A stretch of DNA of 24,738 nt from a virus: the IMG/VR virus record IMGVR_UViG_3300021964_000503, positions 1 to 24,738 of that record. One strand, written 5' to 3'. The position numbers were made by a program, and so were the translations under genes. The notes under the pieces are model-generated. The model had not been told where the DNA came from, ran no database searches, and was given only the letters and a program-made list of their open reading frames with translations. Within the stretch, counting starts at the first letter, position 1, and each line of letters starts with the position of its first letter. This document shows positions 9,203-20,889 of this stretch, piece by piece.

Positions 9203-10162
9203 ATGTATACTTTACAAGAATCCGCAGTTAGTTTACACGATTCCGTTACCCCTATGATATCTGATAACGGATTTATTCGCTTTGAAGGTGTACGGAAACA
9301 ATTGCCCATCCCGCAACTCTTCGAAATCTACATAACGCAAACGCTAGTCGCAAAGCGACAGGCGAACCCCCGCACCAAGCGCAATAATGTTCTACGCATG
9401 GAGCAGATCCTGAAAAATTACGGAATCGATCCCGCGGATTCAGACATATCCGCATTTGCTAGTGTAACGGGAGCGGGGATTCCGATCTGCGATGATTGGG
9501 TAGCTCGGCGCGGGAGTAATGAGATGCGTCAGGCGAGAAGTATTTTCAGTAAGGCGTGGATCAAGAGGTATAAGCAGTTAGATATTAATACTAAATGGTT
9601 CAATAATTGGATCGCGTTGAGTTTGGAGGGCGTGCAGGTCACGCCATTTGATGCGAACCGTAAGGAGTTGGACAAGATCCGCGAGGCGTGCGAAGCGCTG
9701 AAGGAGTCTGACCCTGAAATGTATTTGATGTACGCATTAGCGTACGGATTGGGTCTTCGGAGTAGTGAAATCCAACGGGCAAGGTTTGATGATCTGCACG
9801 AAGACTTTGATGGAAACAAACTGATAAGGATACATAGTCCCAAAAGCGGTGGTGAATACCAGGATCGTCCCTGCGATCCATCGTGGTGGGAACTTATCAA
9901 CTCCCATAAAACATCGAACGATGCTTTAATCGTTCCGTGTCAGGAGGACCGCATAACGCGCGAGTTTCCATCTTTCTTAAGGCGGAGGTGCGGGGTGGTG
10001 GATGATCGCCCCGTACACCGTCTGCGGAAATACTGCGGTCACCGGGTGATGAGGAATAATGGGAATAATGCTTTTGTGGCGAGTAAAGCGCTCGGTCATT
10101 CAAGCGTGGAGATCACCTCCCGTGTGTATGTTGGAATGCCTACGATCCAACGGAGCTTTTAG
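9203..10162 (+). CDS. int: Tyrosine-type site-specific integrase
   Basis: The 319-residue product is a phage integrase that joins attP to a host attB, here probably a tRNA-Lys gene. The catalytic set is complete: R186 (GLGLRSSEI), K214 (SPKSGG), H272 and R275 (HRLR), H299 (LGHSS) and the nucleophile Y309 (RVYVG). Residues about 30-140 form the core-binding domain. The length is normal for the family. No good ribosome binding site precedes the ATG at 9203. The upstream sequence is A-rich (ATTAAAAAAATTCACGCC), so translation may be weak. The gene sits 64 bases after the tRNA-derived attP core, the standard layout. No separate excisionase gene was recognised nearby. Confidence 0.95.
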   Translation: MYTLQESAVSLHDSVTPMISDNGFIRFEGVRKQLPIPQLFEIYITQTLVAKRQANPRTKRNNVLRMEQILKNYGIDPADSDISAFASVTGAGIPICDDWVARRGSNEMRQARSIFSKAWIKRYKQLDINTKWFNNWIALSLEGVQVTPFDANRKELDKIREACEALKESDPEMYLMYALAYGLGLRSSEIQRARFDDLHEDFDGNKLIRIHSPKSGGEYQDRPCDPSWWELINSHKTSNDALIVPCQEDRITREFPSFLRRRCGVVDDRPVHRLRKYCGHRVMRNNGNNAFVASKALGHSSVEITSRVYVGMPTIQRSF

Positions 10163-18433: not shown

Positions 18434-18853
18434 CTAGGGCGTTTTAAATAGATCCCACGCCTCGCGGTACTTTTCGTGCTTTGCCTTGGAGGAGGGGTTA
18501 TGAGCGTAGAGGGATATGCGCAGGGCTTGGTTTATTTCGAGGCATGGTATTATGTACCAAGTGGGTATGGCTTCGACATAAGCGGCAAGTATATCGACCT
18601 TGGTGCAATCGATGGTCATTTTCTTGGAAGTACCTGAAGCGGTGGTGACCATATATCTGCCCTGTCCTTTATTTGCTTTATCAAATACTTTATCCTTAGT
18701 GCCTTTTATTTGTACTTTGAATATTTTGCCCGCTTGGTTCATGACTAGGCAATCCTGTGGGAGGTAATCGCCCAGGGGTGTAAATACTTCGAGATTACGG
18801 GCTAGAGCTTCGGTGAAGAAAGTTTGTTCGTAGAGGGATCCTCTACGCTTCAT
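18434..18853 (-). CDS. PD-(D/E)XK endonuclease-like protein
   Basis: The start is set at ATG 18853, which overlaps the end of the upstream gene by 11 bases. The frame is open further with only basic, proline-rich shadow sequence. The product is 139 residues. The nuclease pattern is clear: E9 in LYEQTFF, D34 in LPQDCLVM and Q48-x-K50 in FKVQIKGT. A strand DILAAYVEAIPTWYIIPC follows at about residues 86-103. This fits small resolvase-like PD-(D/E)XK endonucleases such as those encoded by mobile introns and phages. Substrate and cut type cannot be read. It follows a terminase-small-like gene on the same strand, opposite to the terminase large subunit. Confidence 0.75.
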   Translation of the reverse strand: MKRRGSLYEQTFFTEALARNLEVFTPLGDYLPQDCLVMNQAGKIFKVQIKGTKDKVFDKANKGQGRYMVTTASGTSKKMTIDCTKVDILAAYVEAIPTWYIIPCLEINQALRISLYAHNPSSKAKHEKYREAWDLFKTP

Positions 18854-19361
18854 CGGATATTTCGATGACCTTATCCTCGGAGGCTTCCTTGGGGAGGGAA
18901 TCTGTGGCCTTCTTGGCACCCTTGAGGATTGATCGTACCTTATCCGGGGTCATATCGGAGGCACCTAGTTTTACATTGGCAGAAGCGGTGATGTTTGTGG
19001 GTCTGCCGTTAATGGTCATGAGTTTGTCGAAGAGGACTGAGAGGGTATAGGCGAGGTTTTGTGGGGGTATCTGATCGAGTTTTTCGTGGATGAGGTTGAG
19101 ATTGTCTCCGACTATGGCGGATAGTTTGTTGGATACGGCGTTTAGATATTCCTGCTCGGTCATCTCCAGGCGGTAGCGCAGGAAGTGGCGAGTATAGTCC
19201 TGTATATCCTTTTGTTTCTTTGTGGGGTCGTTTGCCTTAGCCTGGAGCTTGCGGGTTTCGGAAGCTGCATTTGCTTTCTTCATGGCTATTTTTGCGGCTG
19301 AATCGATGATATCGTTTTTTAGGTCCTTACGGAGCGCTTTCACGGTGGCTTTATTACCCAT
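18843..19361 (-). CDS. Helical protein, faint similarity to small terminase or HTH subunits
   Basis: The product is 172 residues. The first 60 are very basic (KALRKDLKNDIIDSAAKIAM, then KKANAASETRKLQ). The middle is helical (TEQEYLNAVSNKLSAIV, then IPPQNLAYTLSVLFDKLMTI) and ends in NGRPTNI. A DK-x5-G-x-PT phrase like this occurs in several phage packaging small subunits and related helical proteins. The C-terminus is acidic. It diverges from the HTH gene at 19422 and is coupled to the nuclease gene downstream. No better candidate for a small terminase was found, but the assignment is weak, and a general DNA-binding role is as likely. Confidence 0.6.
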   Translation of the reverse strand: MGNKATVKALRKDLKNDIIDSAAKIAMKKANAASETRKLQAKANDPTKKQKDIQDYTRHFLRYRLEMTEQEYLNAVSNKLSAIVGDNLNLIHEKLDQIPPQNLAYTLSVLFDKLMTINGRPTNITASANVKLGASDMTPDKVRSILKGAKKATDSLPKEASEDKVIEISDEA

Positions 19362-19421: not shown

Positions 19422-19862
19422 ATGGATACGGAAAGGGCGGGAAAGATTTTGGAGAGGCATGGTCTTACGAAGAAGGCGTTTGCTGATATGATGGGGGTTA
19501 AGCCTAGTACCGCGAGGATGGCGTTCAGTCTGAAGAGGTTTAGCAAGAAGATGGTTGCCAAGTTGGAGGAGTTGGAGGGCGAGTTGGTGGTTGAGCAGGA
19601 GTTGGCGGAAGTCGATGAGATGATAGACAAGGCCCAGGAGAAGAGGGTAAGTATTATTGAGGGGATGGTAAGGCAGAGTACGGGGAATGCTATTGTGCAG
19701 GAGGCTAGGATATATGGAGTGCCTAAGAATAGGTTTCTGAGGTTAATTGAGTTTGGGGATGGTTCGCATGGTAAGTTTAAGTGCAAGCCCGGTAAGTATT
19801 TGAAGTTGGGAGAGAGTGTGCAGGTGAGGCATTTGGATAGGGATATGTGGGAGATTGCTTGA
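19422..19862 (+). CDS. XRE-like helix-turn-helix regulator
   Basis: The product is 146 residues, with GAAGGTG upstream of the ATG. Residues 14-40 (GLTKKAFADMMGVKPSTARM, then FSLKRFS) form the helix-turn-helix. A long charged helix follows (40-85), then a C-terminal beta-rich part with GVPKNRFLRLIEFG and a DRDMWEIA end. The first part would bind DNA. The last could bind a ligand or make dimers, but I do not recognise it. The gene diverges from the helical-protein gene across a palindrome. Its TGA overlaps the ATG of the methyltransferase second frame, which lies two bases ahead of the GTG of the methyltransferase itself. It may control both. Confidence 0.65.
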   Translation: MDTERAGKILERHGLTKKAFADMMGVKPSTARMAFSLKRFSKKMVAKLEELEGELVVEQELAEVDEMIDKAQEKRVSIIEGMVRQSTGNAIVQEARIYGVPKNRFLRLIEFGDGSHGKFKCKPGKYLKLGESVQVRHLDRDMWEIA

Positions 19863-20860
19863 TGTGGATAGTACCCAAAACATTATCAGCTTTTGTACCG
19901 GATACGGAGGGATTGAACTTGGACTTAGAAGAGCGGGCGTGGATGTTAGAGTCGTCTGCAATGTGGAGATCGAAGCCTTCGTCCAAGCAAACCTGGTTGC
20001 GAAGATTGAAGAAGGACGAATGGATGACGCGCCTATCTACTCGGATCTTAAAACCTTCCCTGCACGAATCTTTCGAGGAAAAATTCACGGCCTCATTGGA
20101 GGATATCCCTGTCAGCCATTCAGTTCAGCAGGGAAGCGAAAAGGAGAAGACGACCCAAGACACTTATGGCCCTACATCCGACAGCACATCCGGGCAATTA
20201 GACCTGTTTGGTGCTTTTTCGAAAATGTCCGAGGCCACACCACGATGGGGCTATGGCGAGTCCTGTCCGATTTGGAAGAAGATGGTTACCGAACGGAGTG
20301 GGGACTGTTCTCAGCGGAGGAAACAGGCGCGCCTCACCAACGCATCCGAGTGTTCATCCTGGCCCACACCGCGAGCCGGGAACCCCGGCAGTCGCAAGCC
20401 CGGAACGGGGGGCAAGATACTAGCGGAGGAAGCGAAGAAGAATTGGCGGACTCCAAGCGTTGCGGAAGTGCAGAATCAATGCAACTCAACGCAGATTTAT
20501 CTACAAAACCAAGTGGGTGCGACAGAGAAGAAGGGCAAGAATTGGGACCAACACGCTGGCCCGCCCGCCCCGGAGAAGAGCAGTACGAGTGGGAAGAACC
20601 ACGGGTCGTGGCCGACCGCTCGGTCAAGCGATGCGGAGGGCGGAAGGATAAAGACGGAAAGGACGGAGAAGGGATTTCGGAGCAAGAGGGAAAAGAGCGA
20701 TCAATACTTCGGAGCAAAATTGAGGGATGCGGCGGAGATGGAGAAACCACCCACAATGAAGCTCAATCCGAATTGGGTGGAGCAGTTGATGGGCTTACCC
20801 ATCGGGTGGACAGACTTAGGCTCCTGGGCAACGGAGTCGTCCCACAAACAGCAGAACTAG
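19862..20860 (+). CDS. Overprinted second frame of the cytosine methyltransferase locus (beta-like subunit)
   Basis: This 332-codon frame is open across almost the whole methyltransferase gene, from the ATG that overlaps the HTH stop (TGATG). GGGAG lies about ten bases upstream. It contains QLDLFGAFSKM (112-122), three similar units SWPTPRAG, NWRTPSVA and SWPTARSS (from 166, 194 and 249), and a C-terminal KLNPNWVEQLMGLPIGWT (300-317). The last resembles methyltransferase motif IX, which is missing from the other frame. In the enzymes M.EcoHK31I and M.EaeI a beta polypeptide encoded in another frame inside alpha supplies motif IX, as I recall. Here the overlap is about 1 kb. Translation of the N-terminal third is the least certain part. 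Confidence 0.6.
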   Translation: MWIVPKTLSAFVPDTEGLNLDLEERAWMLESSAMWRSKPSSKQTWLRRLKKDEWMTRLSTRILKPSLHESFEEKFTASLEDIPVSHSVQQGSEKEKTTQDTYGPTSDSTSGQLDLFGAFSKMSEATPRWGYGESCPIWKKMVTERSGDCSQRRKQARLTNASECSSWPTPRAGNPGSRKPGTGGKILAEEAKKNWRTPSVAEVQNQCNSTQIYLQNQVGATEKKGKNWDQHAGPPAPEKSSTSGKNHGSWPTARSSDAEGGRIKTERTEKGFRSKREKSDQYFGAKLRDAAEMEKPPTMKLNPNWVEQLMGLPIGWTDLGSWATESSHKQQN

Positions 20861-20889
20861 CGTGGAGAACTTTATGGCAAAGAATTTAA
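19864..20889 (+). CDS. C5-cytosine DNA methyltransferase (Dcm-like), alpha-type
   Basis: The product adds a methyl group to C5 of cytosine using SAM. The likely start is GTG 19864, giving 341 residues; a TTG lies three codons earlier. Motif I is SFCTGYGG (9-16), motif IV GGYPCQPFS with catalytic C83, motif VI ENV (120-122), motif VIII QRIRVFILA (159-167) and motif X LLGNGVVPQ (320-328). Between motifs VIII and X lies a long, charged, low-complexity segment. No motif IX (TPxExxRLxGFP type) is seen before motif X. The missing motif is found in the overlapping frame. It could protect phage DNA from restriction or affect regulation. No partner restriction gene is recognised. Confidence 0.9.
   Translation: MDSTQNIISFCTGYGGIELGLRRAGVDVRVVCNVEIEAFVQANLVAKIEEGRMDDAPIYSDLKTFPARIFRGKIHGLIGGYPCQPFSSAGKRKGEDDPRHLWPYIRQHIRAIRPVWCFFENVRGHTTMGLWRVLSDLEEDGYRTEWGLFSAEETGAPHQRIRVFILAHTASREPRQSQARNGGQDTSGGSEEELADSKRCGSAESMQLNADLSTKPSGCDREEGQELGPTRWPARPGEEQYEWEEPRVVADRSVKRCGGRKDKDGKDGEGISEQEGKERSILRSKIEGCGGDGETTHNEAQSELGGAVDGLTHRVDRLRLLGNGVVPQTAELAWRTLWQRI

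Follow-up and report, generated by a model that had tools for sequence, protein, structure and literature searches.

Two-polypeptide C5-cytosine methyltransferases with motif IX on the small subunit are already known, and the locus described here appears to be a variant of these enzymes. In M.EcoHK31I (YGGCCR), the small chain is encoded within alpha in another frame, and M.EaeI is likewise composed of two polypeptides, with a beta chain in another frame of alpha that supplies motif IX. The C5-methyltransferases of the Bacillus phages SPR and phi3T are single chains that harbor several exchangeable target-recognition units between motifs VIII and IX. The large chain of M.EcoHK31I holds motifs I-VIII and X and the small chain motif IX, the latter as stated in the first-pass annotation of this DNA, and the target-recognition domain (TRD) is predicted on the large subunit (PMC3404938). 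M.AquI is split inside the variable region, and its smaller chain bears both IX and X (PMC3404938); ShiLan-domain phage methylases contain an out-of-frame HNH endonuclease (PMC11855218).

The present locus lies in the window, i.e. the whole 24,738-nt stretch of viral DNA that was analysed, where two frames on the same (+) strand, alpha and beta, share 997 nt (Table 1). The first-pass annotation had described alpha as a frame opening at GTG with motifs I, IV, VI, VIII and X and without IX, and beta as a long open frame starting at ATG and ending in motif IX; motifs and coordinates of both are correct. As in M.EcoHK31I, the large chain bears I-VIII and X and the small chain IX, and the large-chain gene contains the small chain in a different frame. 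However, beta here opens two bases ahead of alpha and covers almost its entire length. The modules of this locus also evolve as beta codons instead of residing on the large chain, a difference that may not be true, as the TRD location in M.EcoHK31I is only predicted. M.AquI and BsuMI-type enzymes share the organization of two polypeptides forming one enzyme (BsuMI is named solely on account of the YdiP annotation of two P. larvae phage records), but whereas M.AquI has IX and X on the small chain, X is here on alpha. In contrast to the SPR/phi3T-type methyltransferases, the array is placed in a second frame, and every module is open in the alpha frame too. ShiLan-domain methylases resemble the locus in having a hidden second frame within a phage methylase gene whose first frame is open, yet their second frame is a homing endonuclease insert rather than an enzyme subunit (PMC11855218). 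In the open-licence literature on overlapping methyltransferase genes, nothing closer was found.

Table 1. Features of the methyltransferase locus (window coordinates)
Feature	Position	Strand	Remarks
Shine-Dalgarno-like GGAG	19850..19853	+	8 nt 5' of ATG 19862
Shared start TGATGTG	19860..19866	+	stop of upstream HTH-like gene, beta ATG 19862 and alpha GTG 19864, overlapping
Beta, 332 aa	19862..20860	+	helical N-terminal region, W.TP modules, motif IX; open for 332 codons
Alpha, C5-cytosine methyltransferase, 341 aa	19864-20889	+	PF00145, E=2.8e-32; phrog_363, E=6e-55
Beta module 1, WPTPRAGNPGSRKPGTGGKILAEEAKKN, type 0	20360..20443	+	type 0 in 40/55 representatives, at varied array positions
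Alpha linker, about aa 170-321	20371..20826	+	DNA of the beta modules and motif IX read out of frame; disorder predicted
Beta module 2, type 59	20444..20608	+	only in the window gene; shared tail GPPAPEKSSTSGKNHGS
Beta module 3, WPTARSSDAEGG..., type 2	20609..20758	+	type 2 in 12/55 representatives
Beta motif IX KLNPNWVEQLMGLPIGWT	20759-20812	+	beta aa 300-317
Alpha motif X GNGVVPQTAELAW... and C-terminal helix	20827..20889	+	helix 327-340, pLDDT about 90-97 (AlphaFold2)

Related loci occur in several groups of viruses and cells. The Paenibacillus larvae phages Bloom (gp56/57) and Lily (gp62/63, 'internal gene') as well as gut phages encode nested alpha/beta homologues in the same relative frame, again with IX in beta, X in alpha (L001) and W.TP modules in beta. 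In these nested forms, however, the start of beta lies about 150-200 nt into alpha, the N-terminal region of beta is missing, and the alpha codons ahead of beta evolve freely. Among 80 bacterial or archaeal genome loci and named phages, about 76, classed by pattern and not by hand, have IX in the same relative frame, nested or full-length. Hence, of the earlier proposal of a phage version with a 997-bp overlap, the overlap is real, but this phage is not alone in having the architecture. Among named phages that combine the full-length form with a related terminase, Phage C75C1 (terminase 30.5%) is the nearest. Five nested gene copies with identical coordinates and scores (L198-L202) are present in one Roseovarius chromosome assembly (OX638333.1). 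In the mycobacteriophages ShiLan, Fancypants and Phasih, IX and X are located in one chain and one frame, the arrangement to be expected if the two frames divide one common domain order between them. Single-chain mycobacteriophage methyltransferases (L162, L163, L169, L410-L439) also display an open beta-like frame of 150-190 codons, possibly a remnant or a further product.

Alpha contains motif I (FCTGYGG) at 19891 (aa 10), motif IV (PCQPF) at 20107 (aa 82), motif VI (ENV) at 20221 (aa 120), motif VIII (QRIRVF) at 20338 (aa 159) and motif X (GNGVVP, aa 322-327), i.e. motifs I, IV (PCQ), VI (ENV) and VIII (QRxR) of PF00145 in order. No motif IX was found in the alpha frame; IX and X are both in the locus, on beta and alpha, respectively. 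M.HaeIII and M.HhaI are the alpha relatives of known structure in the PDB. In AlphaFold2 models, for which alignments were built from the window and related-locus rows only, the alpha core (aa 1-170) reaches a pLDDT of mostly about 80-96, with aa 85-93 below 50, and aa 172-322 are mostly below 50 (about 34-45). AlphaFold2 yielded no confident model for beta (mean pLDDT 50.8), for which no fold match was detected in viral structures. At the sequence level, beta aa 73-319 match phrog_1008 'DNA methyltransferase' (E=1e-22), whereas neither Pfam nor NCBIfam gave a match.

Two scans of viral contigs provided about 157 loci, some contigs being picked up by both. The locus set comprises 75 distinct complete genes, with 55 representatives below 90% alpha identity, and the overlap measures 835-1477 nt in relatives. 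The overlapping start, at which one ribosome binding site could serve both frames as suggested in the first-pass annotation, recurs in this set: 40 of the 55 divergent representatives open with ATGTG and 12 with GTGTG (52/55 in total), and the two starts are apart but near each other in three divergent loci. A Shine-Dalgarno match of at least 4 nt precedes 41 of the 52 [A/G]TGTG starts, compared to 27% of random positions, and 51 of the 52 loci lack a further start at residues 2-9. In 23 of them, GTG is the sole ATG/GTG/TTG start of the alpha frame past the last in-frame stop; another upstream alpha start is formally possible in 29, the window among them (TTG 19855). Together, these patterns support a single initiation site common to both frames, which may fix the subunit ratio. 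The TGA stop of a small HTH gene (19422-19862, +) overlaps the beta ATG, and translational coupling to the methyltransferase start is therefore possible.

Both frames are kept open across the family. When marine viral loci are chosen by beta, all 72 of them have an open alpha, and when the choice is made by alpha, beta is open in 74 of 75, in line with the first-pass reading, for which many stops in the beta frame of homologues would have been damaging. The lone complete relative with an early beta stop (L050, 1233-2089; codon 130) has an intact alpha, and the stop may reflect either a sequencing error or a real loss. With the alpha protein of the window gene fixed, resampling by codon usage gives about 12 beta-frame stops and shuffling of its own codons about 5, against none observed (0/300 shuffles in each case); as such whole-gene test regions end at the first beta stop, a fixed 160-codon region was relied on instead. 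Over the first 160 alpha codons, the 55 genes contain no beta stops, although codon usage predicts about 6.9 per gene and a shuffle of the gene's own codons 3.1; the third frame contains about 17 stops per gene. Alpha stops are likewise avoided, in that beta codons with T as a possible third base never have it before AA, AG or GA (0/2324, versus 1385/4780 in other contexts), but this set was picked for intact alpha, and the unbiased claim of openness hence rests on the 72/72 and 74/75 counts. Judged by sequence, both frames are maintained, and chance is excluded as the origin of the open beta frame.

Rates of change indicate where beta constrains alpha. Across 35 independent nearest pairs, alpha codon positions 1/2/3 differ at 0.158/0.101/0.179, compared with 0.173/0.118/0.374 in the neighbouring genes, a comparison confounded by methyltransferase recombination (L096/L108: pS 0.02 in neighbours, 0.19 in alpha), and ratios and sister-family contrasts are therefore preferred. 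The ratio of position 3 to position 1 in alpha is below that of the neighbouring genes in 34 of the 35 pairs, and four-fold sites of the neighbouring genes, at 0.341, change more than those of alpha 1-165 in 34 of the 35. In the full-length family, change at four-fold sites of alpha is 0.099 in codons 2-50 and 0.115 in codons 60-160, without a step. In contrast, the nested family shows 0.460 and 0.203, respectively (32/38 pairs, P=2e-5), with the rate dropping from 0.50 in codons 51-60 to 0.28 in codons 61-80, where nested beta opens. Synonymous change in alpha codons 2-50 is thereby about 4.6-fold below that of the nested sister group, in which beta starts about 58 codons inside, and the reduced synonymous change that the first-pass annotation had named as a check is indeed observed. 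Single-chain pairs, too, exhibit low synonymous change at alpha 121-160 (0.04-0.08, 6 pairs), declining toward codon 160, and part of the constraint there may consequently not stem from beta. The alpha tail past the beta stop offers only 85 four-fold sites, too few for rates.

The same data address the strongest of the alternatives, namely that two proteins are made but functional beta begins internally, for example at ATG 20024 (aa 55), its N-terminal half being merely open. Nested relatives do begin beta within alpha, and an SD-like AGAAGGA is positioned 7 nt before ATG 20024. However, the equally low rates in codons 2-50 and 60-160, different from those of the nested family, disfavour such a start. 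Likewise, changed beta codons 2-55 are conservative in the full-length family (mean BLOSUM62 1.13, versus -0.49 in the nested family), and the N-terminus MWI[IVL]PK is conserved almost throughout relatives. For selection on beta amino acids, only this contrast of architectures was used; shuffling within codon types keeps the bias under test. We consider an internal beta start improbable.

Between motifs VIII and IX, beta is built from units beginning W.TP, of which there are 1-7 per gene and about 60 types; their number correlates with alpha length (rho 0.91). Within module types, beta position 3 changes fastest (type 0: 0.061, 0.029, 0.262 for positions 1, 2 and 3), and for types 0-2 identity amounts to 91-97% in the beta reading as compared to about 70% in the alpha reading. 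Hence, the modules are beta protein, which alpha passes as an out-of-frame linker. Inside the modules alpha codon position 1 is fastest, and conservation there hence does not concern the alpha amino acids. In motif IX, sites at alpha position 1/beta position 3 are again the fastest (0.249, versus 0.117 at alpha position 3/beta position 2), which shows selection on the beta frame there. The original view that beta supplies motif IX accordingly holds, IX being found only in beta, but it was too narrow, as beta also encodes the selected modules between VIII and IX.

The module arrays form 54 different strings among the 55 representatives, and in 522 of 581 pairs, modules of one type resemble each other more closely than do the cores of the genes that carry them. 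For instance, modules of L082 have about 96-99% nucleotide identity with those of genes whose cores are 56-59% identical. At the level of sequence, the modules have been swapped between phages. As in multispecific methyltransferases, the stretch from VIII to IX in this locus family thus harbors multiple TRD-like units that can be exchanged. The W.TP units are most likely target-recognition modules, and each may represent a TRD for a different site.

Alternatively, alpha alone could be the enzyme, with the beta frame arising accidentally from composition or from the conserved motifs of alpha. Most catalytic motifs do reside in alpha, alpha conservation gives some similarity in the beta frame, and single-chain mycobacteriophage genes match beta positions 76-180. 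This explanation is nevertheless very improbable and already contradicted by the step in synonymous rate at the start of beta: synonymous sites in alpha 2-50 are suppressed only where beta reaches that far, the 160-codon region is free of beta stops in all 55 genes, the modules and IX evolve as beta frame, and IX is missing from alpha. Just as improbable is programmed frameshifting that fuses the frames into a single chain ordered I-VIII, TRD-IX and X, which would fit the domain order on the DNA, identical to that of a single-chain enzyme, but is disfavoured by the frame geometry (a +1 shift from alpha to beta and a -1 shift from beta to alpha, i.e. two events per protein), by the lack of slippery sites (only 1 of 55 loci has an X_XXY_YYZ heptamer in the stretch from IX to the beta stop), by the conserved start and N-terminus of beta itself and by the sister families that begin beta inside alpha.

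Based on these comparisons, we propose that one transcript region is read in two frames to yield a two-subunit C5-cytosine methyltransferase. Alpha would supply the SAM-binding and catalytic motifs I-VIII together with the motif X helix, and beta, begun two bases upstream at ATG 19862, would contribute the N-terminal region, the target-recognition modules and motif IX. Both proteins are presumably made and would assemble as one active enzyme, with the out-of-frame middle of alpha serving as a flexible tether from VIII to X. A two-subunit, two-frame C5-methyltransferase with exchangeable beta modules is very likely the best explanation of the locus. Conservation supports the two-subunit reading, which had been put forward in the first-pass annotation, as does the synonymous constraint, which sets in where beta starts. 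Recombination of modules would alter the set of DNA sites that the phage shields from host restriction, and known phage C5-methyltransferase biology is compatible with an anti-restriction role in which specificity would change by module exchange. We lean slightly towards the fuller scheme, in which dual coding extends over nearly the full length, one ATGTG start fixes both subunits, and recombining cassettes that are stop-free in two frames would provide combinatorial specificity for restriction evasion.

Other genes of the window include an integrase at 9203-10162, and the phage is hence probably temperate. A PDDEXK_14 phage endonuclease (22063-22494, +; PF24579, E=3e-21) is situated between the methyltransferase and the large terminase and is possibly the nuclease partner of the methyltransferase. 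Upstream of the methyltransferase, on the opposite strand, a PD-(D/E)XK endonuclease is encoded (18434-18919, -; PF11645, E=2e-12), which PADLOC labels as a homing endonuclease.

To our knowledge, few long overlapping genes with two confirmed functional products are known outside small viruses. In the present family, dozens of marine phages have overlaps of about 0.8-1.5 kb, and selection on both frames is clear. In Synechococcus phage Ssp-JY39 (L002, 2427-3633), only beta is annotated, as 'hypothetical', and the catalytic alpha is unannotated; alpha does carry an annotation in Yong-M2-251 (L168). As gene callers usually report one of the two frames, specificity subunits of phage methyltransferases have probably been missed. 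The ATGTG start allows a direct test of how initiation is divided between two frames from one ribosome-binding site. The modules, in turn, represent a natural library for how C5-methyltransferases read their targets and for how phages may change their methylation to escape restriction.
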